This document shows, piece by piece, positions 47,172-64,000 of a stretch of DNA of 64,000 nt (positions are counted from its first letter, which is position 1; the number at the start of each line of letters is the position of its first letter). The notes beneath the pieces were generated by a model that was not told the DNA's origin, did no database searches, and was given only the letters and a program-made list of their open reading frames with translations. This DNA comes from Devosia ureilytica (lineage in GTDB: Bacteria; Pseudomonadota; Alphaproteobacteria; Rhizobiales; Devosiaceae): positions 310,001 through 374,000 of the forward strand of contig NZ_JAMZCU010000002.1 in assembly GCF_024273195.1 (NCBI RefSeq). Reading direction: 5' to 3'. Both the position numbers and the translations under genes were made by a program.

Positions 47172-47256
47172 GCCCAGATGGCGGAATTGGTAGACGCGCA
47201 CGGTTCAGGTCCGTGTACCGCAAGGTGTGAAGGTTCGAGTCCTTTTCTGGGCACCA
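47172..47256 (+). tRNA. tRNA-Leu (anticodon CAG)
   Basis: 85 nt including encoded CCA. Acceptor GCCCAGA pairs with TCTGGGC, discriminator A. The anticodon stem CACGG/CCGTG encloses TTCAGGT with anticodon CAG; the long variable arm and TTCGAGT T-loop are as expected for tRNA-Leu. It reads CUG codons, the most used Leu codon in this genome's genes. A strong terminator follows. Confidence 0.96.
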
Positions 47257-53369: not shown

Positions 53370-54566
53370 CTAAAGCGCCCGCTGAAAGCGTTCAAAGCGC
53401 CCCAATTCGACATCGATGGCCGCCTTGGCCTCGGCGCCAACCTCCTCCAGCCATGTCCATTTCTGGATGAGCAGCTTTCCGGCCTGCCGGTCAGTTTTCA
53501 AGTCCACGGCCGCAACGACACGATCATCGAGCAGTACCGGCAGGGCGAAATAGCCATATTGGCGCTTGGCGGCGGGCACATAGGCTTCAAAGATGTGGTC
53601 GTAGCCGAACAGTAGCTTGAGCCGCTTGCGCTGGATGATCAGTGGGTCGAAGGGCGAGAGAATGTGCACGCGGTTTGCCGGGACAGGGGCCACAATCGCC
53701 AGTGCCTCCGGTGTCGCCCAGTGCGGCACCTTTTCGGCGCCCTCGATACTGACGGGCACAAGCTGGCGGCGCTTGACGCGCGCCTCGATCAATTCGCGCA
53801 CCGCCTTTTTGGCCGGTGCATTGAGGTGGCAGATGGAATCCAGACTCACCACGCCCTGGCTGCGCAGCGCCCGGTCGAGGAGATAGGTGGTCACCTGCCG
53901 TTCGGTGGCCGGGCGGGGGTTCTGTTCCCAGCCGAAATGGCGGCCGATGAGATCATAGGTTTTCACCATGCCCTCACGCGCCGCAATGGCAACCAGGCCT
54001 TGATAAAACATCAATTGCAGCACGCGCTTGCTCGGCTTGCGGCTGGCCCAGGGATGGGTCTTGTCCACCAGTTCGTCGTCGTCGATGTCGCGAATGGACA
54101 GCGGCCCCTCGGTCTTGAGGCGCCTGGTCATGGCGCTGACCTCGGCCCTGGTCACCGAGCCGAACCAGGCGCTGGGGTTCTCCCGATAGGCCTTCATGGC
54201 GGGCAGGAAATAGGGCAAGTCCCCAGTGGGCACATAGCTCAGCGCATGGGTCCAATATTCAAAGATCGATTTTTGCGCCGACTGCAGCGCGGCAAGATCG
54301 CTGCGTTTGTAGGCCGGAATGCGCGCGTAAAGGATATGATGGTGGCAACGCTCGATGACATTGATCGTGTCGATCTGCACATAGCCCAATTGCGCGATTG
54401 CCGCCTGCGCGGCCTCGGGGCCGGCGCCGAAGGGCTCGACCGCGTCGAGGCGCTGGGCGCGCATCCAGATGGCGCGGGCCTGGGTGGGGGAGAGGGTGAT
54501 GGGCTGGCGCGGCACGGGTGATTCCTGAGGACTGACAGACGATGTCAGATCAGGGGCGTGTGTCAA
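53370..54566 (-). CDS. YcaQ-like winged-helix DNA glycosylase family protein
   Basis: 398 residues. Features of the HTH_42/YcaQ family are TLSPTQARAIWMRAQRLD, LGYVQIDTINVIERCHHHIL (the catalytic QxD: Q and D in VQID), SKRVLQLMFYQGLVAIAARE and HILSPFDPLIIQRKRLKLLF. Members such as E. coli YcaQ unhook interstrand crosslinks and alkylated bases. It is divergent from the ArsR group and alone on its strand. Confidence 0.9.
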   Translation of the reverse strand: MTHAPDLTSSVSPQESPVPRQPITLSPTQARAIWMRAQRLDAVEPFGAGPEAAQAAIAQLGYVQIDTINVIERCHHHILYARIPAYKRSDLAALQSAQKSIFEYWTHALSYVPTGDLPYFLPAMKAYRENPSAWFGSVTRAEVSAMTRRLKTEGPLSIRDIDDDELVDKTHPWASRKPSKRVLQLMFYQGLVAIAAREGMVKTYDLIGRHFGWEQNPRPATERQVTTYLLDRALRSQGVVSLDSICHLNAPAKKAVRELIEARVKRRQLVPVSIEGAEKVPHWATPEALAIVAPVPANRVHILSPFDPLIIQRKRLKLLFGYDHIFEAYVPAAKRQYGYFALPVLLDDRVVAAVDLKTDRQAGKLLIQKWTWLEEVGAEAKAAIDVELGRFERFQRAL

Positions 54567-54653: not shown

Positions 54654-54675
54654 GATGGCGAACCGAGAGACTGGA

Positions 54676-54990
54676 ATGGACGAAGACAAGGTATTCAAGG
54701 CGCTGGCCGATCCAAGCCGCCGAAGGCTGCTCGACCTGCTGTTCGAGCAGAATGGGCAATCGCTGGGCCAATTGTGCGAGCATCTCGACATGGCCCGGCA
54801 GTCGGCCACGCAGCACCTTGAAATCCTGGAAGCGGCCAATCTGGTCAGCTCGATCAAGCAGGGCCGGGTGCGGCTGCACTACATCAATCCCGTGCCCATC
54901 CACGAAGTCTACGAACGCTGGGTCCGCAAGTTCGAGCGCGAGCGCCTCAGCCTGTTGCATGAGCTGAAAACCCAGCTCGAAGGAGAGTGA
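54676..54990 (+). CDS. ArsR-family transcriptional regulator
   Basis: 104 residues from ATG with GAGAG upstream. Winged helix: DKVFKALADPSRRRLLDLLF, GQSLGQLCEHLDMARQSATQ, HLEILEAANLVSSIKQGRVR. The metal-binding Cys pair of arsenic/cadmium sensors is absent; it belongs to the ArsR group usually paired with SRPBCC (AHSA1) proteins, which follows after one base. It most likely represses its own operon through the two dyads in the promoter. Confidence 0.92.
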   Translation: MDEDKVFKALADPSRRRLLDLLFEQNGQSLGQLCEHLDMARQSATQHLEILEAANLVSSIKQGRVRLHYINPVPIHEVYERWVRKFERERLSLLHELKTQLEGE

Positions 54991-54991
54991 A

Positions 54992-55456
54992 TTGACGAGG
55001 GAAACCACCAGTTTTGTCTATGTGACCTATATCGCCTCAACGCCGGAAAAGGTGTTTGCGGCCATCACCACCCCGGAAATCGCCCGCCGCTACTGGGGCC
55101 ACGAAAATGTTTCGAGCTGGCAAAGGGGCGCCCGCTGGGAACATGTCAAAGCCGACGATGCTCGCACGGTTGAACTGGTGGGCGAGGTCATCGAGCACGA
55201 CCCGCCCAAGCGGCTGGTGATCAGCTGGGCCAATGCATCCGAGGCGCATCAACCCGAGAGCCACAGCCGCGTGACTTTCGAGATCGAACGCTACCAGGAT
55301 ATGGCGCGCCTGACCGTCAGCCATGATGATCTCATCGCCGGCAGCGGCATGGCCAAGGGCATCAGCAAGGGATGGCCCATCGTGCTCTCCAGTCTCAAGT
55401 CCTATCTCGAAACCGGCCGCGGGCTGGACGTTTTCGCCAAGCCCGCATCGGCCTGA
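54992..55456 (+). CDS. SRPBCC (AHSA1/START-like) domain protein
   Basis: 154 residues. Starts at TTG with AGGAGAG upstream, one base after the ArsR stop. TYIASTPEKVFAAITTPEIA, RRYWGHENVSSWQRGARWEH and the C-terminal helix KGWPIVLSSLKSYLETGRGL are the AHSA1-like pattern: a hydrophobic cavity closed by the last helix. These proteins bind lipophilic ligands; the ligand is unknown. Pairing with ArsR is very common. Confidence 0.9.
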   Translation: MTRETTSFVYVTYIASTPEKVFAAITTPEIARRYWGHENVSSWQRGARWEHVKADDARTVELVGEVIEHDPPKRLVISWANASEAHQPESHSRVTFEIERYQDMARLTVSHDDLIAGSGMAKGISKGWPIVLSSLKSYLETGRGLDVFAKPASA

Positions 55457-55473
55457 ACCTGGGGAACAAGACC

Positions 55474-55914
55474 ATGTCGACCTCAAAGTTTACCGGTGGC
55501 TGCGCCTGCGGCGCCGTCCGCTACCAGATGCACACCGAACCCATCTTCCAGAACCATTGCCAATGCCGGGACTGCCAGAGGCAAAGCGGGGCCGGGCATG
55601 GCTCCTACCTCACCTTCGCACAGCGCGAGGATCAGGCCGTGTCAGGCAGCGCCACCAAGTGGAGCGTCGTCGCCGAAAGCGGCAACATCAAGCACTATGC
55701 CTTCTGCCCGACTTGCGGGTCCCCCGCCTATCTGACATTTGCGGCCATGCCGGACCTGATTGCAGTGCCGGTGGCGAGCCTGGATGATCCCGGCGCGTTC
55801 ACGCCGCAGGCGCTGACCTATGCCAGCCGTGGCCATGGCTGGGATCTTGTCGATCCGGTTTTGCCGACCTTCGCCGGAATGCCGGCAGCCCAGGACCCAT
55901 CGCCATCCAGCTGA
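55474..55914 (+). CDS. GFA-family zinc protein
   Basis: 146 residues from ATG. Zinc Cys motifs: GGCACGAVRY, NHCQCRDCQRQSG and FCPTCGSP. Probable glutathione-dependent formaldehyde-activating-like fold, activity unproven. It follows the SRPBCC gene by 17 bp in the ArsR operon. It is not a recent copy of the GFA protein at 46.8 kb: spacing and residues between the Cys pairs differ. Confidence 0.9.
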   Translation: MSTSKFTGGCACGAVRYQMHTEPIFQNHCQCRDCQRQSGAGHGSYLTFAQREDQAVSGSATKWSVVAESGNIKHYAFCPTCGSPAYLTFAAMPDLIAVPVASLDDPGAFTPQALTYASRGHGWDLVDPVLPTFAGMPAAQDPSPSS

Positions 55915-56035
55915 TGCTGGCCTGCCAATCGCGGTTGGTCCTAACGCCTTTTCCGAACCATCACACCCAACCAGACCACGGACCACTGTCCGGGGCGCGC
56001 CCGCTCACGCCCAAAGTCACCACAAGGAGCAAAAA

Positions 56036-56497
56036 ATGAACGACCAGGCCAGTTTCACGACACGATTTCATGTCACCAAGAGCCCGCAGGCGGCTTTCGA
56101 AGCCATCTGCAATCCCCGCGGCTGGTGGAGCGGGGAGATCAGCGGTTCCAGCCACCGGCTGGGCGATATCTTCACCTATCGCTACAAGAACCTGCATTTT
56201 TCCCGCCAGCAGGTATCCGAGCTGGTGCCCGACAGGCGCGTCGCCTGGCAGGTGCTGGACGCCGATCTCGCCTTTGTCACTGACCGGAGCGAATGGACCG
56301 GGACGACCATCGCCTTCGACATCGCCAGCCGCGGCGGCCAGACTGAGGTGACTTTCACCCATCTGGGCCTGCAACCACAGGTGGAATGCTTCGAGGTCTG
56401 TACCGATGCCTGGTCAGGCCTGATCCAGGGCAGCCTCAGGGAGCTGATCGAGACGGGCAAAACAAAGATGCGGGAGCTGGACGCGCAAACGCCATAG
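56036..56497 (+). CDS. SRPBCC (AHSA1-like) domain protein
   Basis: 153 residues, start with AAGGAG upstream. RFHVTKSPQAAFEAICNPRG, WWSGEISGSSHRLGDIFTYR and EVCTDAWSGLIQGSLRELIE show a START-like cavity protein different from the one two genes upstream. The gap of 121 bp before it may hold its own promoter. It is the last chromosomal gene before the integrated element. Confidence 0.87.
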   Translation: MNDQASFTTRFHVTKSPQAAFEAICNPRGWWSGEISGSSHRLGDIFTYRYKNLHFSRQQVSELVPDRRVAWQVLDADLAFVTDRSEWTGTTIAFDIASRGGQTEVTFTHLGLQPQVECFEVCTDAWSGLIQGSLRELIETGKTKMRELDAQTP

Positions 56498-56543
56498 GCC
56501 GCTGGGCGCGGCCAAGAAAAGTGGGCTGACAGATTGGAGGAAT

Positions 56544-56557
56544 TGGTGGAGCCTAGC
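56544..56557 (-). other. Candidate attachment site: 3' end of tRNA-Ala
   Basis: On the minus strand this reads GCTAGGCTCCACCA, the same as the last bases (acceptor arm plus CCA) of alphaproteobacterial tRNA-Ala genes. The rest of the tRNA is missing: the upstream sequence diverges at once. It lies 147 bp before the integrase start, the expected place for the core of an attachment site left by integration into a tRNA gene. Confidence 0.6.
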
Positions 56558-56703
56558 TCCATCTAACAAGCATTCGTGCGTGTTCATCGGTGTCCATATT
56601 TCATAGGGGTTTAGCTCCAGCACCGTGAACACATGTTCTTGTGACGTTCGCCGATGTTCGCTATCATCCACGCACTCAAGTGGGGATGAAAGTGGGGGCA
56701 GCC

Positions 56704-57966
56704 ATGGCGCGTTCACTGAACAAGCTTTCCGAGGTCGGGGTTCGGTCCGCGAAGAAGGCCGGCCGCCATAGCGATGGCGGCGGCCTCTATCTCAACGTCT
56801 CTGCGAGCGGCGGGAAGTCGTGGGTCTTCATGTGGACGCCGCCCGGTGGCAAGCGTCGCGAGATGGGTCTCGGTCCATATCCCACTGTGACTTTGGCCAA
56901 GGCCAGGGCAATGGCTGCCAACTATCGCGTCGACGTTGCAGAGGGCCGGGATCCGATAGCGGAACGTGACCAGACGCCCGAACCCTTATTCGGCGACGCG
57001 GCCGACCAGTATATCGAGACCATCAAATCCGAATGGAGCAACGCCAAGCACGCGGAGCAATGGTCGCACACGTTCAAAGTCCGGTGCGCTGCAATTCGGA
57101 ACTTGAGGGTGTCGGCCGTTGGCACAGATCATATTCTGAAGGTTCTCCGCCAACCGGTGACCTCGAAATACAAAGGCGAGGTGAAGAGCGGCGAGTTTTG
57201 GCTCATCATGCCAGAGACGGCCGGTCGGGTTCGCAACCGCATTGAGCGCGTTCTCGATCATTGCCGGACGAAGGGTTGGCGGACTGGTGAGAACCCAGCG
57301 CGCTGGAAGGGCCATTTGGCGCACCTGCTGCCCAAGCCAGCAGCCCTGATCCGGGGCCATCAACCGGCCATGTCCTATGAGGACGTTCCGGCCTTCATGG
57401 CGGAGTTGCGTGCCCAGGAAGGCCTGTCGGCGCGTGCCGCAGAATTCTCCATCTTGAACATGACTAGGTCGAACGAGGCGCTTGGCGCTGAATGGCCAGA
57501 ATTCGACCTGGACGGCAAGTTCTGGACGATACCGAAAGAGCGCATGAAGATGGGCAAGGAGCACACGGTTCCTCTGTCTGACCGCGCCGTGGAGATAATC
57601 CAGGAACTCAAGAACGCGGGCACAAACCATCGCTTCGTATTGCCGGGTCAGCCACGGAAATCCGATGGGGAAGAGCGTCCGCTCTCGAACATGGCAATGC
57701 TGATGTTGATCCGCCGGATGGGCTACGACGTCACCATGCATGGCTTTAGATCGTCAGCTCGAGACTGGGCTGGTGATGAGACGCCGTTCGCCCGCGAGAT
57801 TGTCGAGCATGCCCTCGCCCATAAGGTCGGCGATGACTCCGAGAATGCGTATCGGCGCCTTACCGCACTCAAGAAGCGCCGGGTGCTCATGCAAGCGTGG
57901 GCTGACTACTGCTGCTCGACGAGGCCTTCCAACGTCGTGCCCATCAAGGGCGGTGCAAACAGCTAA
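56704..57966 (+). CDS. Tyrosine recombinase/integrase with DUF4102-type arm-binding domain
   Basis: 420 residues from ATG with GTGGGGG upstream. The N-terminal DUF4102-like domain shows SDGGGLYLNVSASGGKSWVF and MGLGPYPTVTLAKARAMA. The catalytic domain has Arg in LNMTRSNEALGAEW, the H-x-x-R of MHGFRSSARDWAGD, His in VEHALAH and the nucleophile Tyr in SENAYRR. It is complete, so the element could still be mobile. This type typically uses tRNA 3' ends as targets, matching the tRNA-Ala fragment beside it. Confidence 0.95.
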   Translation: MARSLNKLSEVGVRSAKKAGRHSDGGGLYLNVSASGGKSWVFMWTPPGGKRREMGLGPYPTVTLAKARAMAANYRVDVAEGRDPIAERDQTPEPLFGDAADQYIETIKSEWSNAKHAEQWSHTFKVRCAAIRNLRVSAVGTDHILKVLRQPVTSKYKGEVKSGEFWLIMPETAGRVRNRIERVLDHCRTKGWRTGENPARWKGHLAHLLPKPAALIRGHQPAMSYEDVPAFMAELRAQEGLSARAAEFSILNMTRSNEALGAEWPEFDLDGKFWTIPKERMKMGKEHTVPLSDRAVEIIQELKNAGTNHRFVLPGQPRKSDGEERPLSNMAMLMLIRRMGYDVTMHGFRSSARDWAGDETPFAREIVEHALAHKVGDDSENAYRRLTALKKRRVLMQAWADYCCSTRPSNVVPIKGGANS

Positions 57967-59125: not shown

Positions 59126-59320
59126 ATGACATTGAAACCCGCCTACTCGGTCAGCCAGTTTCTGTCCGAATTTGCCATGGGCCGAACCCGCTTCTACGAG
59201 TTGGTCGGCCAGGGCGCGATCCGCGTCCGCAAGAATGGCAACAAGACCATCGTCACGGGCGAAGATGCCCAGGCCTTTCTCAACAGTCTTCCGATTGTTG
59301 AGCCGAAGAAGGCCGCCTGA
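59126..59320 (+). CDS. AlpA/excisionase-type small DNA-binding protein
   Basis: 64 residues. A MerR-like winged helix runs YSVSQFLSEFAMGRTRFYEL, VGQGAIRVRKNGNKTIVTGE then DAQAFLNSLP, the excisionase/AlpA pattern. Such proteins direct excision or switch on the integrase in phage-like elements. GAGG lies upstream inside the inverted repeat. Confidence 0.88.
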   Translation: MTLKPAYSVSQFLSEFAMGRTRFYELVGQGAIRVRKNGNKTIVTGEDAQAFLNSLPIVEPKKAA

Positions 59321-59386: not shown

Positions 59387-59578
59387 GTGCATAAATACAC
59401 CAAGTGCGCCATTGCGCGCAACAGGCGCGAAGCCGCCAATCTCTGCATCAACCACGAACCTGAATTGACGCGCGGTGGTCTCGTGATCAAGCGCTGCCGC
59501 CCTCAGTGGTCGGCCAGCGTTTGCAACCTCAAGGCAGCATTGGCCGGTATTGGTCAGGAGGTGCGCCATGCCGGCTAA
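59387..59578 (+). CDS. Small hypothetical protein
   Basis: 63 residues from GTG; other starts are possible and no clear ribosome-binding site is seen. It runs VHKYTKCAIARNRREAANLC then INHEPELTRGGLVIKRC and KAALAGIGQEVRHAG. Its end overlaps the start of the next gene, whose ribosome-binding site lies within it, which is consistent with a packed phage-like operon. No family recognised. Confidence 0.42.
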   Translation: MHKYTKCAIARNRREAANLCINHEPELTRGGLVIKRCRPQWSASVCNLKAALAGIGQEVRHAG

Positions 59579-59954
59579 TCCTCGCCGCACGTCGGCTACC
59601 GACCCGAAGCGTTGCATCTTCAAAAAGGCGAAGACATGGACGCGCCGAGATCCTGACGCTCCCCAGTCGCCTCAGGCCAGGTGGAACAGGAACAATCGCC
59701 ACAAACTTCGCGCCCATGCCGAAGTCCGGAAAGCTCTGCGCACCGGCGACCTCAAGCGCGGTCGTTGCGAAGTCTGTGGTAGCCTCCGCGTCGAAGCCCA
59801 CCATGAGGACTATACGGCGCCACTGTCGGTGACATGGCTGTGCCGTCGCCACCATAAGTTGTGGCACGCGGCCGAGCAGAAAATCGAAAATGGCAGCGTC
59901 GCCCTGTGGATTGAAGCGCTGTTGTCGGGAGGCGCCAATGTCTCCGGCCAATGA
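59568..59954 (+). CDS. HNH-like zinc-binding phage-type protein
   Basis: 128 residues from ATG with AGGAGG upstream. A basic N-terminus precedes CEVCGSLRVEAHHEDYTAPL, then VTWLCRRHHKLWH: Cys-x2-Cys, His-His and Cys-x2-His-His form a treble-clef zinc site like that of HNH nucleases. The catalytic HNH signature is degenerate, so it may be a nuclease or a structural DNA-binding protein. Similar short proteins occur in alphaproteobacterial prophages. Confidence 0.7.
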   Translation: MPANPRRTSATDPKRCIFKKAKTWTRRDPDAPQSPQARWNRNNRHKLRAHAEVRKALRTGDLKRGRCEVCGSLRVEAHHEDYTAPLSVTWLCRRHHKLWHAAEQKIENGSVALWIEALLSGGANVSGQ

Positions 59955-60231
59955 CAATGCACAAAGTCCCGAGGCGAACTGGAGCCATATCGAGCTGTCG
60001 GCGGGGACGGTAGCTGACGCCTATGTGCTGGACGAGCATGGCAAGCGTGCTCTGCCATGTGAGGTTGGCCAGTTTCGCTTCTTCATCGACGTGGTCGAAT
60101 ACGATGGTGGTCGTCTCGGGCTGGAAAGTTGCGAGACCTATGAGCACGCGATCCTTAAGGCGGAACAGGCGCGACATGACTGGCAGCTCTCCAGTCCGGC
60201 TCGTGACATGGTCGTGGAATCGCGCCCATGA
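59938..60231 (+). CDS. Hypothetical element protein
   Basis: 97 residues from ATG with GGAGG upstream, overlapping the HNH-like gene by 17 bp and the following HTH gene by 4 bp. It reads MSPANDNAQSPEANWSHIEL, then LPCEVGQFRFFIDVVEYDGG and YEHAILKAEQARHDWQL. Acidic, soluble, no domain recognised. Tight packing supports that it is real. Confidence 0.65.
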   Translation: MSPANDNAQSPEANWSHIELSAGTVADAYVLDEHGKRALPCEVGQFRFFIDVVEYDGGRLGLESCETYEHAILKAEQARHDWQLSSPARDMVVESRP

Positions 60232-60755
60232 GCAAGGAAGCCTGTAAGTGGCATAGCCGTCAGGTCATCCCCAATGGACCAATGAAGTCCGTCCTGGGCG
60301 TCCTGGCATACCTGCACTGTGAGGGGAAGTTGATTTTCCCCTCACAGGCTTACCTTGCCCGTGAGACTGGATTGACCGACCGGTCGGTGCGCACCGCGCT
60401 GGCCCTTCTCGATGCGATGGGTGTCGTTGACCGTCGCCATCGCAGTGCTGGTGCAAAGGGTCGAATTTCCGACAGCTACACCCTGCGTCTGAAACAGGAA
60501 TTCATGTTCACCCGGCGGCAAATCCGGGACACCCGAAATGCACTTCGCTACCGGAAGCAAATTCCGGTTGGAGAAAATTCTCTACCGGAACGTGGTTCCT
60601 TCGCTACCGGAAGCGCGTTCCGGGGAATAGGAGAGGAACAGGATAAGAGTACCTACCAAGAGGGAGCCCTCAAGGGGGTAGATAGTAGTGTAGGGTATAC
60701 GCGCGAGGCCGGGGTGGTGGTGCCACTGCGGGCAATCGGCGGGGGCGCCAAATGA
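60228..60755 (+). CDS. Helix-turn-helix protein of the replication module
   Basis: 175 residues. HTH_36-like N-terminal domain: GPMKSVLGVLAYLHCEGKLI, PSQAYLARETGLTDRSVRTA, LALLDAMGVVDRR. Such domains are common in phage and plasmid replication initiators. The C-terminal half is low-complexity and charged. It overlaps the helicase start by 4 bp (ATGA), indicating translational coupling in a helicase-primase module; it could mark the origin. Confidence 0.8.
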   Translation: MSKEACKWHSRQVIPNGPMKSVLGVLAYLHCEGKLIFPSQAYLARETGLTDRSVRTALALLDAMGVVDRRHRSAGAKGRISDSYTLRLKQEFMFTRRQIRDTRNALRYRKQIPVGENSLPERGSFATGSAFRGIGEEQDKSTYQEGALKGVDSSVGYTREAGVVVPLRAIGGGAK

Positions 60756-62227
60756 GGCAGCTCCACGACTACCAGGCCAATGCCATCGCCGTTCTGCGCC
60801 AATCTCTGGCAAGGGGTCACAAAAGGCCCATGCTCCAGGCGGCGACCGGGTCAGGCAAAACGGTTATCGGTGCCCACATTACGCAATCGGCCTTGGATAA
60901 GGGAAAGCGCGTTTGCTTCACCGTTCCGGCGATCTCATTGATTGACCAGACCGTCGAGCGTTTCCGGCAAGAAGGGATCGATAACCTAGGAGTTATTCAG
61001 TCGGATCATCCGGCCACGGATCCAACGGCGCAAGTCCAGATCGCCAGTGTCCAAACCCTCGCCCGCCGCATGTTCCCTGGCACGGACCTCGTTATCGTTG
61101 ATGAGGCTCATCAGATGCACAAGGCGGTGTTCCAATGGATGGGCCAGTGTCCAGACCTCCCATTTGTCGGGTTGTCGGCAACGCCTTGGACCAAGGGCCT
61201 TGGCAAATACTACGACCACCTCATTGTGGCGGCGACGACGGGTGATTTGATCTCCCGAGGCTTCCTGGCCCCATTCCGGGTCTTTGCCCCGTCGCATCCT
61301 GACCTTGGCAAGGTTCGAACTGTTGCTGGCGACTATCACGAGGGCGACCTCGAAGATGCCATGAGCGAGCCCAAGCTCACAGCGGACATAGTTTCGACCT
61401 GGTTGGAGATGGGCGAGAACCGTCCCACCCTTTGCTTCGCGGTCAATCGAGCACACGCGAGAAAGCTGCTGGACGAGTTCATCGCCGCCAACGTCAGTTG
61501 CGCCTGTGTCGATGCTTACACTGACCGTGAGGAACGCAAGCGGCTCTGCGAGGCCTTCAACGATGGGCTGGTCAAGGTCATCGTCAATATCGGGACCATG
61601 ACGACGGGTGTGGACGTTGATTGCCGGTGCATCATCCTGGCCCGGCCTACGAAATCGGAAACCCTCTATGTCCAGATTATCGGTCGTGGCCTTCGCACGG
61701 CACAGGGCAAGGCTGATTGCCTGATCCTCGATCACAGTGACACCACACTGCGGCTGGGTTTTGCCGACCAAATCCACCACGACACGCTGGACGATGGGCG
61801 GCGCGACGAAACCCGTGCCCGGAATGCCAAAGCTGACACGCCCAAGCTGCCCAAGGAATGCGCCAGCTGTCACTACGTGAAACCGGCCGGCGTCCACGTT
61901 TGCCCCCAATGCGGTTTTGCGCCCGCACGTAGGGAGGACGTGGAAACGGCGGCAGGCAAGCTTGTTCAGGTGGCCGGGGGCAAGGCCAGGGCCGACCATT
62001 CCACCAAGCAAAGGTTCTGGAGCGGGCTGCAATGGTATTGCCAGCAGCGCGGTTACAATCAGGGCTGGGCATCGCACAAGTATCGGGAAAAGTTCGGAGT
62101 GTGGCCGCGTGGGATGCTCGACACTCCGCGTGCCCCCGATGCGGAATGCGCAAATTTTGTTCGAGCCGGGATGATCCGGTTTGCCAAGGCCAAACAGAAG
62201 CAATTGCGGGAGGCGACCAATGGGTAA
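60752..62227 (+). CDS. DEAD/DEAH-box (superfamily II) DNA helicase
   Basis: 491 residues. Motif I QAATGSGKTVIGAH at about 29-42, DEAH in IVDEAHQMHKAVF near 118, Ser-Ala-Thr in VGLSATPW and motif VI QIIGRGLRTAQGKAD near 308. A zinc ribbon follows, CASCHYVKPAGVHVCPQCG, then a C-terminal domain with RFWSGLQWYCQQRGYNQGWA. SSL2/RecQ-type phage helicases with this layout help start replication. It overlaps the primase gene by 8 bp. Confidence 0.93.
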   Translation: MRQLHDYQANAIAVLRQSLARGHKRPMLQAATGSGKTVIGAHITQSALDKGKRVCFTVPAISLIDQTVERFRQEGIDNLGVIQSDHPATDPTAQVQIASVQTLARRMFPGTDLVIVDEAHQMHKAVFQWMGQCPDLPFVGLSATPWTKGLGKYYDHLIVAATTGDLISRGFLAPFRVFAPSHPDLGKVRTVAGDYHEGDLEDAMSEPKLTADIVSTWLEMGENRPTLCFAVNRAHARKLLDEFIAANVSCACVDAYTDREERKRLCEAFNDGLVKVIVNIGTMTTGVDVDCRCIILARPTKSETLYVQIIGRGLRTAQGKADCLILDHSDTTLRLGFADQIHHDTLDDGRRDETRARNAKADTPKLPKECASCHYVKPAGVHVCPQCGFAPARREDVETAAGKLVQVAGGKARADHSTKQRFWSGLQWYCQQRGYNQGWASHKYREKFGVWPRGMLDTPRAPDAECANFVRAGMIRFAKAKQKQLREATNG

Positions 62228-63197
62228 TCTCGCAGAACGCGCACATGGACGGTGGCGTGAAATTCTTCCTGCTCTCGGCATCGACGCCAAGGCATTGGTC
62301 AACAAGCATGGGCCATGCCCTGTCTGCGGTGGAAAGGATCGCTTTCGCTTCGATGACAAGAATGGGTCAGGAAGCTGGTTTTGCAACCAGGGCCATGGTG
62401 GCGAACACGACAAGGCAGCGGGTAGTGCCGGAAATGGCGTCTCCCTTGTCATGGACTTCAAGCAGTGCAGCTTCCCCGAGGCAGCGCGTCTGATCGAAGG
62501 CATTATCGGAAAAGCCGACAATGACCGGCCTCCAACTATGCCGGTCGTGGACGAAGAGCAGGCCGCCCGAGAACGCTACCAGCAAACCATTGCGCTCTGG
62601 CGTTCTGGCATCGCCATCCGCTCAGGCGATCCCGCAGACCTCTATCTTCGGTCTCGCGTTGGCCCATATCGGGCAACACGGGCGCTGCGGCTCATTCCTG
62701 AGACCGTTTTTGCTGGCAGGTCCATGCCTGCGCTGCTCTCGGCCTATGTCGATGTCCATGGCGAATTGTGCGGGGTACAGCGAACCTTCCTGACCGCAGA
62801 CGGGCAGAAGGCTAAGGGCATTGAGGCGCCCCGGTGGAACACCGGAACATTGCCCGAGGGCGGAGCCATCCGATTGGCGTCGCATGACAACACCCTCGGG
62901 ATCGCGGAGGGCGTGGAGACGGCCTTGGCTGCAACCGCCCTCTACGGTGTTCCTTGCTGGGCTGCATTAAACGCCGGGCGGCTGGAGGCATGGGAGCCAC
63001 CCGAGGGCGTTCGCAACATCGTGGTGTTCGGTGACGCGGACCTGAACTACCGGGGACAACAGGCGGCCTTCAACCTGGCACATCGGCTTTCACGCAAGGT
63101 GCAGGGGAGACCTGAACGGGTGGTGCAGGTGGCCATACCCGATGAGCTTGGCATCGACTGGAATGATGTGCTTAAGCGCGACAGGCTTGCAGCCTGA
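62220..63197 (+). CDS. Zinc-finger/Toprim DNA primase
   Basis: 325 residues from ATG inside the helicase stop region. A P4-type zinc finger lies at HGPCPVCGGKDRFRFDD near 32-48 with a second pair in WFCNQGHGG. The Toprim domain has the metal Glu in LGIAEGVETALAATAL near 240 and Asp-x-Asp in VVFGDADLN near 280. It should make primers for the element's replication with the helicase upstream. No separate helicase domain follows, unlike P4 alpha. Confidence 0.92.
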   Translation: MGNLAERAHGRWREILPALGIDAKALVNKHGPCPVCGGKDRFRFDDKNGSGSWFCNQGHGGEHDKAAGSAGNGVSLVMDFKQCSFPEAARLIEGIIGKADNDRPPTMPVVDEEQAARERYQQTIALWRSGIAIRSGDPADLYLRSRVGPYRATRALRLIPETVFAGRSMPALLSAYVDVHGELCGVQRTFLTADGQKAKGIEAPRWNTGTLPEGGAIRLASHDNTLGIAEGVETALAATALYGVPCWAALNAGRLEAWEPPEGVRNIVVFGDADLNYRGQQAAFNLAHRLSRKVQGRPERVVQVAIPDELGIDWNDVLKRDRLAA

Positions 63198-63209: not shown

Positions 63210-64000
63210 TCAGTGGCGGCGCGTCTTCGGTAGCTTTTTAGCCTCGGCCGCCAGCGCTGAGATGGCTGCCTCTGCGTCGCGTTTTCGCTCTAACCTGCGT
63301 TGCTTGTCGAAAGCCACGTACTCGGCCTCGGCCTTTTGCCGTGCCGAATCGCCACGAATAGAGCCCCCTGACTTAAGAACTGCCCGCCCGAGCTGCGCTA
63401 ACTGTTGGTCGAGCAGGTCGCGGGCATCCTGCATCACCACGAGGCGACCGATGTCCAGTTGGTCCTCGAAAATGTCGAGCAAGATAGTGGTGAGGCGATT
63501 CAGTTCCTTGATCTCGCCCTCAGCCAGGTAATTTTTGGAGACCCCCACATCGCGTTTTTGAATGTTGTCTTTGGGCCAAGTCTGAAGTCCCATGTTCTCG
63601 ACACGATGGTTTGCTCGTTGGGCGACAATTTCCGCAGGTGTATGTGAAGTGACGGCGTATACCAACTTGGCTTGGGTATGCTGATAAAACTCGCGGGCCG
63701 CTTCAGTGCTTCCGTCGTAGTCCTGGCACAGTGCGCATATGCGCTTCAGTTCTGCATAGAGGTTCGCTTCATCGGACCTGATGTCGCGGATGATTTCTCT
63801 AAGCTCGGCAATCCTGTCGCTATTCTCGGGCTGCTTCAGGCGTGCGGAATCAACTACAAAGCCCTTCTTGGCAAATTGGACCAATATGCCTGTTGCCCAG
63901 CGACGAAACACCGTGGCCTGAGCAGATGAGACTCGGTAGCCTACCGAAATAACCATATCCAAGCTGTGAAGCGTCACCGGCCTTGCAGAACTAGCAATAT
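63210..64000 (-). CDS. RhuM-family protein, cut by window edge
   Basis: At least 263 residues; the frame stays open to the window edge, so the N-terminus (roughly 80 residues in the family) is missing. The RhuM signature LDMVISVGYRVSSAQATVFR and WATGILVQFAKKGFVVD is clear, with a later YAVTSHTPAEIVAQRANHRV and a C-terminal coiled coil rich in Arg/Glu. RhuM proteins are widespread on mobile elements and reported in host interaction and phage contexts, but the molecular role is unsettled. It converges on the primase gene with a 12-bp gap. Confidence 0.9.
   Translation of the reverse strand, partial: IASSARPVTLHSLDMVISVGYRVSSAQATVFRRWATGILVQFAKKGFVVDSARLKQPENSDRIAELREIIRDIRSDEANLYAELKRICALCQDYDGSTEAAREFYQHTQAKLVYAVTSHTPAEIVAQRANHRVENMGLQTWPKDNIQKRDVGVSKNYLAEGEIKELNRLTTILLDIFEDQLDIGRLVVMQDARDLLDQQLAQLGRAVLKSGGSIRGDSARQKAEAEYVAFDKQRRLERKRDAEAAISALAAEAKKLPKTRRH

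Follow-up and report, generated by a model that had tools for sequence, protein, structure and literature searches.

The window is the whole 64,000-nucleotide stretch of DNA that was analysed, and it lies on a contig, called C11 below, of the assembly of the soil bacterium Devosia ureilytica. Towards its right-hand end there is a short fragment of a tRNA-Ala gene, which is followed by a tyrosine integrase and a series of phage-type replication genes. The features concerned, in window coordinates, are as follows.

53370-54566, minus strand: chromosomal flank gene, the empty-site marker, adjoining tRNA-Ala(GGC) in 10 of 24 relatives' loci
54655-56497, plus strand: extra cassette of small genes that separates flank gene and left core, not here in those 10 loci
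56543-56557, plus strand: left attachment core (probable attL), 15 bp, matching the end of an intact tRNA-Ala(GGC) at C11:395469-395483
56544-56550, plus strand: left core arm TGGTGGA, the tRNA 3' end including CCA on the minus strand, at a position conserved among relatives
56551-56557, plus strand: 7-bp overlap GCCTAGC, with the putative positions of strand exchange
56558-56564, plus strand: element-side core arm TCCATCT, an imperfect inverted copy of TGGTGGA (5 of 7 bases)
56678-56697, plus strand: direct repeat AAGTGGGG-(4)-AAGTGGGG, period 12, candidate arm-type integrase sites
56704-57966, plus strand: tyrosine integrase, 420 aa, with an Arm-DNA-bind_3 N-terminus (Pfam)
59126-59320, plus strand: small protein, 64 aa, HTH/excisionase-like by eye, guessed to be a candidate directionality factor
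59550-59954, plus strand: endonuclease-like ORF (phrog_2340), HNH type by reading
60228-60755, plus strand: replication initiation O-like protein
60752-62227, plus strand: phage-type DNA helicase (phrog_16)
62220-63197, plus strand: DNA primase with zinc ribbon and Toprim (phrog_510)
63210-64000, minus strand: RhuM-family protein, continuing past the window to C11:374253, with a strong match to the PADLOC candidate defence family PDC-S05

The 14 bases at 56544-56557 (TGGTGGAGCCTAGC on the plus strand, GCTAGGCTCCACCA on the minus strand) had been read in the initial annotation as the terminal bases of a minus-strand tRNA-Ala standing directly before a tyrosine integrase, and a complete tRNA-Ala on the minus strand, carrying these 14 bases, was predicted to the right, beyond the 64 kb. 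These expectations are borne out by the rest of the genome. When the 20 contigs of the assembly (3.81 Mb) are scanned, TGGTGGAGCCTAGC is found exactly twice, both times on the plus strand and never on the minus strand, at C11:366544, which is the window site, and at C11:395470, so that both copies lie on the contig of the window. Some 0.03 chance occurrences of a 14-mer are expected by arithmetic on both strands of a 3.81-Mb genome, and the same word read backwards has no match in the whole assembly. The second copy forms the exact 3' end of an intact tRNA-Ala with the anticodon GGC, called by ARAGORN on the minus strand at C11:395470-395545, which is 28.9 kb to the right of the left core and 21.5 kb beyond the window end; the contrary outcome that had been named, no such tRNA-Ala downstream, did not occur. 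The only tRNA gene called within the window is a tRNA-Leu (47172-47256). Direct comparison of the two copies extends the exact repeat to 15 bp (TTGGTGGAGCCTAGC), one base beyond the CCA end of the tRNA, after which the left copy continues with TCCATCT and the right copy with GGGATCG, the T arm of tRNA-Ala(GGC). The integrase ORF begins 146 bp after the left core, with its ATG at 56704. The direct repeat of 15 bp, the adjacent integrase and the complete tRNA at the other end, taken with the unoccupied relatives and the presence of the same island at another tRNA-Ala gene that are described below, make it very probable (roughly 0.9) that 56543-56557 is the attL of a phage-derived integrative island of 28.9 kb, spanning about C11:366543-395483, that entered the 3' end of tRNA-Ala(GGC).

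The core reads as a textbook attachment site, in which the TGGTGGA arm and the inverted arm TCCATCT enclose the 7-bp GCCTAGC overlap. The integrase is full length, has no stops and contains three Pfam domains above cut-off, Arm-DNA-bind_3, Phage_int_M and Phage_integrase, which correspond to the arm-binding, core-binding and catalytic parts; its HGFR (346) and AYRR (382) fit the HxxR and Y motifs of the recombinases. The repeat pair in front of the integrase has a matching pair at C11:395395-395413, 55 bp inside the right core. To judge by sequence, the three domains, the inverted arms around a 7-bp overlap and the arm-type repeats at both ends are those of a heterobivalent tyrosine integrase. 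The catalytic part of such an enzyme would bind TGGTGGA and its inverted partner, its N-terminal arm domain would bind the 12-bp-period repeats at both island ends, and strands would cross within GCCTAGC, at the junction of the T stem and the acceptor stem. The last 14 bases, brought in by the island's own copy, would then rebuild the tRNA gene, and its function would thereby be kept. The period-12 repeats look like arm-domain binding sites and, since the left pair lies just before the integrase start codon, the integrase gene probably represses itself. The left copy continues into the island as TCCATCTAAC and the right end of the island is GGTGTATTTGGTGGAGCCTAGC; the junction of an excised circle would join GGTGTATTTGGTGGAGCCTAGC to TCCATCTAAC, and the rejoined tRNA site would read GGAGGAATTGGTGGAGCCTAGC followed by GGGATCGAACC.

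For the island as a whole 43 ORFs were predicted, of which the proteins of 30 were scanned against Pfam, 29 against PHROGs and 10 against NCBIfam, the GGDEF/EAL protein with Pfam only and as a 456-aa part. Besides the replication genes, the island encodes a 906-aa phrog_5880 protein and an endolysin-family match, and cargo at the right includes nuclease genes together with GGDEF/EAL, PAS and SRAP (SOS-associated peptidase) genes, the latter three in the middle-right of the island at C11:384630-387854 (L003/L004). The 64-aa candidate directionality factor has no Pfam, PHROG or NCBIfam match. No large terminase, portal, capsid or tail gene was recognised at E 0.001 among the 29 proteins compared with PHROGs, and no relaxase or conjugation gene scored above cut-off among the 30 proteins compared with Pfam and the 10 compared with NCBIfam, where a TraI match of the primase reached 25 bits, far under the cut-off of 930. 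PICI-like phage satellites have an integrase, a replication module, no capsid set and a small-terminase-type or hijacking gene. The island has an integrase and replication genes, and its small-terminase match (phrog_641) is weak, at only 1.1e-5. A phage-derived island or a satellite fits best, and the element may also be a decayed prophage.

A further question is whether the element still moves. The lack of a recognised large terminase, portal, major capsid or conjugation gene in the proteins scanned, and the many small ORFs without a family in the middle of the island, are what would be seen if it were a fixed and immobile remnant whose attachment sites are mere scars. Set against this are the full-length integrase with its recognised motifs and the intact state of both ends, as well as the fact that satellites and islands move by means of helper functions; a fixed remnant is accordingly a serious possibility, to which we give a little under even odds.

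The integrase was searched for in 75 genomes of the genus, the source genome (G000) included, and 42 of them have a match at E 0.001. The closest proteins are those of Devosia marina L53-10-65 (G020), which is 95% identical, with 23 of 420 residues different, and of a Devosia ginsengisoli MAG (G014), which is 81% identical. The island of G020 is syntenic with that of the window, with 93% identity over 3.9 kb of replication genes and 89% over 1.5 kb including the integrase, and in the DNA comparison further matching pieces extend to the right end of the island; the sister islands have both ends in common and differ in their middles. Both G020 and G014 encode a protein that matches a major-head family. 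The G014 island also has (L059:2639-4087 and L058:18907-19530) a second tyrosine integrase of another type, an autoinducer synthase and transport genes, with an ABC ATPase and a periplasmic binding protein, so that it may be two nested elements.

Both sister genomes have TGGTGGAGCTGAGC as the left core, with an intact tRNA-Ala(CGC) to the right of it, 27.0 kb away in G020 and 35.8 kb in G014. The overlap in these relatives is GCTGAGC as against GCCTAGC in the window, and thus two bases differ. Both tRNA-Ala ends, of the GGC and CGC types, are present in G000 and in G020, and the tRNA-Ala(CGC) of G000 is unoccupied: its left flank matches a G020 flank to within 2 bp of the core, and in G020 7.6 kb of other genes separate that matching flank from the left core. 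Across 17 genomes of the genus the tRNA-Ala(GGC)-type end is polymorphic, with CCTAGC in 9, CCAAGC in 7 and the end unseen in 1 incomplete genome, so that the overlap of the window's island is expected to suit only some members of the genus. At the tRNA-Ala(CGC)-type end, CTGAGC was seen in 15 of the 17, and the other two are incomplete.

The direction of the change was read from an integrase tree, built by a quick method from 80 distinct proteins, each with a readable core and 360 aa or more in length. Here the window's element falls within a clade whose other near members (L031, L032, L067) all use GCTGAGC, so that a change to GCCTAGC is most simply placed on its own lineage; the next row out (L080) has GCCTAGG, which leaves the polarity uncertain. 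The target class changes 8 times among the 80 integrases compared with a mean of 12.3 when shuffled, a value as low being reached in 0 of 200 shuffles, and is therefore clustered and yet changes repeatedly. The exact 14-mer changes 60 times, which is partly divergence of the tRNA genes themselves. The islands of G000 and G020 might also be separate acquisitions from donors with differing overlaps, in which case the window's island never switched target and the difference would carry no information on Devosia. Each species is represented by one genome and such islands are mobile between species, and the Ala class on the tree includes relatives from outside the family, all of which suits separate acquisition. 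The nesting within the GCTGAGC clade speaks against it, as it puts the change on the window element's own branch, even if in another host, and we regard separate acquisition as somewhat less likely than not. In the open-licence literature no account was found of the present element, nor of a switch between isoacceptors by integrases of this lineage.

The left boundary of the island was assessed from unoccupied loci. The flank to the right of the island, around the tRNA, is conserved within the genus, and the best-scoring 24 of 74 relatives matched around the tRNA were compared with about 1.5 kb of flank each. In 10 of the 24 loci the flank gene at 53370-54566, the product of which we take from its translation to be a winged-helix protein, aligns so near to the core of tRNA-Ala(GGC), 53-1042 bp away, that there is no room for an integrase between flank gene and tRNA; in the other 14 this adjacency was absent within the flank available. 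Joined flanks were also compared with 75 genomes (the 74 relatives and G000), and among the matches listed none extends more than 18 bp to the left of the core. The empty site foreseen in the initial annotation is thus supported in gene order, in 10 of 24 loci, but not as a base-exact junction among these matches.

In the source genome 2.0 kb of small genes separate the flank gene from the left core, and we take them by eye from the translations to be ArsR, SRPBCC, GFA-like and SRPBCC genes; at least four further genomes (G050, G044, G001, G005) contain matches to the last of them at other places. As this cassette is missing here from the 10 loci of relatives that have the flank gene, it might belong to the element, whose true left boundary would then lie near 54.58 kb. 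No other copy of the core with up to 3 mismatches occurs in 54.4-56.6 kb besides that at 56543, and additional DNA of other kinds separates flank and left core in G020 (7.6 kb, including what we read as thiamine-type genes) and in G014 (4 kb), which indicates that the flank simply varies; a boundary near 54.58 kb is thus very unlikely. Older att copies were also sought in the left flank. Apart from the palindrome itself, neither G000 nor G020 has a second core with at most 3 mismatches, and the single 3-mismatch match of G014 (CTGGGCCTGAGC type), which lies 0.7 kb inside the stretch that was scanned, was taken as chance.

The design of the attachment site recurs at the loci of related integrases, where an arm TGG[CT]GGA is followed by 7 variable bases, an inverted arm of about TCC[GA]CCA and then the integrase. 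Three loci (L106, L107, L108) duplicate L031, L032 and L083 and are omitted from the arm, period-12 and tree counts, the 142 and 148 loci counted include that of the window itself, and loci with less than 330 bp upstream are excluded from the core counts and those with less than 100 bp from the period-12 count. Inverted sites precede 76 of 142 distinct loci (79 of 145 with the duplicates) compared with 10 of 140 in the control zone and 7 when shuffled. At 92 of 142 loci the left arm precedes the integrase start by 90-310 bp, as against 7 of 140 in a control zone further upstream, and in 84 of the 92 it stands at 140-215 bp; 43 different overlaps are seen, and those checked match the ends of tRNA-Ser, tRNA-Ala or tRNA-Tyr. 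Counter to a single design, the left arm is absent from the other 50 loci, and three more distant genomes (G002, G030, G074; loci L050, L051, L052) have an intact tRNA-Ser some 190-250 bp upstream on the integrase's strand, which is the opposite arrangement to that of the window. The element-side arm was also compared with the tRNA for joint variation at position 4 (T going with A and C with G); the raw Fisher p is 9e-6, and the covariation was set aside as not established, since there are only 4 independent pairs on supported branches and the sign test has a median p of 0.5.

The far-end tRNA was looked for in 24 genomes chosen by hand, from genus and family loci with a readable core, G092 and order-level genomes being excluded. 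A tRNA with the same 14-mer is on the integrase's contig in 14 of the 24, each time in the predicted orientation and direction and 12-58 kb away, on another contig in 8, and was not found in 2 (77 and 74% complete). Of 16 right-end stretches, 15 gave an ARAGORN call, namely 1 tRNA-Ala(CGC), 13 tRNA-Ser (CGA, GCT, GGA) and 1 tRNA-Tyr; labels beyond the ARAGORN-checked genes were assigned from the 14-mer. The tRNA-Tyr-type end TGGTGGAGGGGACT is the core at L040 and L046 (G019 and G070), by which the integrase lineage also enters tRNA-Tyr; the tRNA-Tyr of G019 was confirmed by ARAGORN, and that of G070 was not found in the search for the same 14-mer. That the 14 bases in the window are a chance match without relation to the integrase can be dismissed, as nothing was found in its favour and the two-copy genome scan with its chance expectation, the position, orientation and intact far-end tRNA, all as predicted, and the recurrence of the pattern in all 14 genomes with integrase and tRNA on one contig refute it.

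Period-12 repeats stand just before the integrase at 83 of 148 loci, compared with 1 of 141 in the control zone and 2 of 148 when shuffled, and other periods from 9 to 16 occur before the integrase at 1-14 loci. The repeated word varies between elements and agrees within an element, at both ends. Over 19 elements, near relatives included and with the right end taken from another contig in 5, the end-to-end match sums to 226 versus 143 +/- 10, and 0 of 20000 permutations were as high; the match is weak or absent in 5 of the 19 (G013, G053, G006, G005, G103).

Within this family the tRNA gene would be picked by the overlap more than by the integrase protein. In Sinorhizobium meliloti, integrase sequence clusters are described as coinciding with the tRNA gene entered (PMC11476347, PMC12429752), an agreement by which the protein may share in target choice. 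By analogy with known elements, integration at a mismatched site that leaves a changed crossover would be a sufficient route from GCTGAGC to GCCTAGC. A wider picture, which we put forward tentatively and would not back at even odds, is of a lineage in the alpha-, beta- and gammaproteobacteria with nearly fixed arms (TGG[CT]GGA and its inverse) taken from the acceptor end that tRNA-Ser, tRNA-Ala and tRNA-Tyr have in common, a freely exchangeable 7-bp overlap that alone selects the tRNA gene and lineage-specific arm repeats of 12-bp period, in which moves between isoacceptors would come about by overwriting of the overlap at a mismatched site, followed by drift of the element-side arm until it mirrors the new tRNA.

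The island itself is ordinary and represents a common kind of insertion. The value lies less in the tRNA remnant than in the pair of islands with two targets and in the comparative set of sites. The close relative in a different tRNA-Ala gene hints at how such islands change address, and it provides a clean natural pair, with 95% identical integrases, syntenic islands, two tRNA-Ala genes present in both genomes and two overlap bases changed. Together with the attachment sites of the relatives, the pair yields a rule, open to testing, for the choice and change of target by tRNA islands, and the collected sites form a comparative set for reading the arm-site specificity of the integrases.

Amongst 278 phage records the most similar integrase is that of Caulobacter phage DMCA (PQ480021), at 46% identity, which is a complete phage record as opposed to the island here. 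By eye, period-12 repeats of the GACTTAGG type flank the region in front of the integrase in that phage (L223:1581-2000). A tRNA core guessed for it has no tRNA match in 289 genomes, and four other phage records have no core of this design in this orientation. The tDNA islands collected by Islander share with the present one the signature of an intact tRNA at one end, a 3' fragment in the same, direct orientation at the other and a tyrosine integrase between (PMC4383910). The present crossover would fall in Islander class J, as that class is described there, in the T-stem region at the junction of T and acceptor stems (PMC4383910). The integrase here lies beside the fragment and not beside the intact tRNA, and the Islander definition, as set out in that account, requires neither place (PMC4383910).

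In the KplE1/IntS module of E. coli, the core- and arm-type sites of IntS are reported to overlap the integrase promoter, and negative autoregulation was shown (PMC2951348). The attachment region of the present island likewise overlaps the integrase promoter and autoregulation is predicted, with the difference that KplE1 IntS is described as lying by the side of tRNA argW, whereas the intact tRNA is at the far end here (PMC2951348). ICEBs1 of Bacillus subtilis, according to the published description, has a 17-bp core in a tRNA gene, in which inverted arms of 5 bp enclose a crossover region of 7 bp (PMC3715440), and it resembles the present island in having inverted arms around 7 bp within a tRNA gene (PMC3715440). 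It differs in being an integrative and conjugative element with conjugation functions, and the secondary sites reported for it are non-tRNA sites from which excision is impaired (PMC3715440). Integration of ICEBs1 at such mismatched secondary sites is described as leaving changed crossover sequences (PMC3715440), and a crossover changed in this manner is a possible route by which the present island's lineage may have changed its target.
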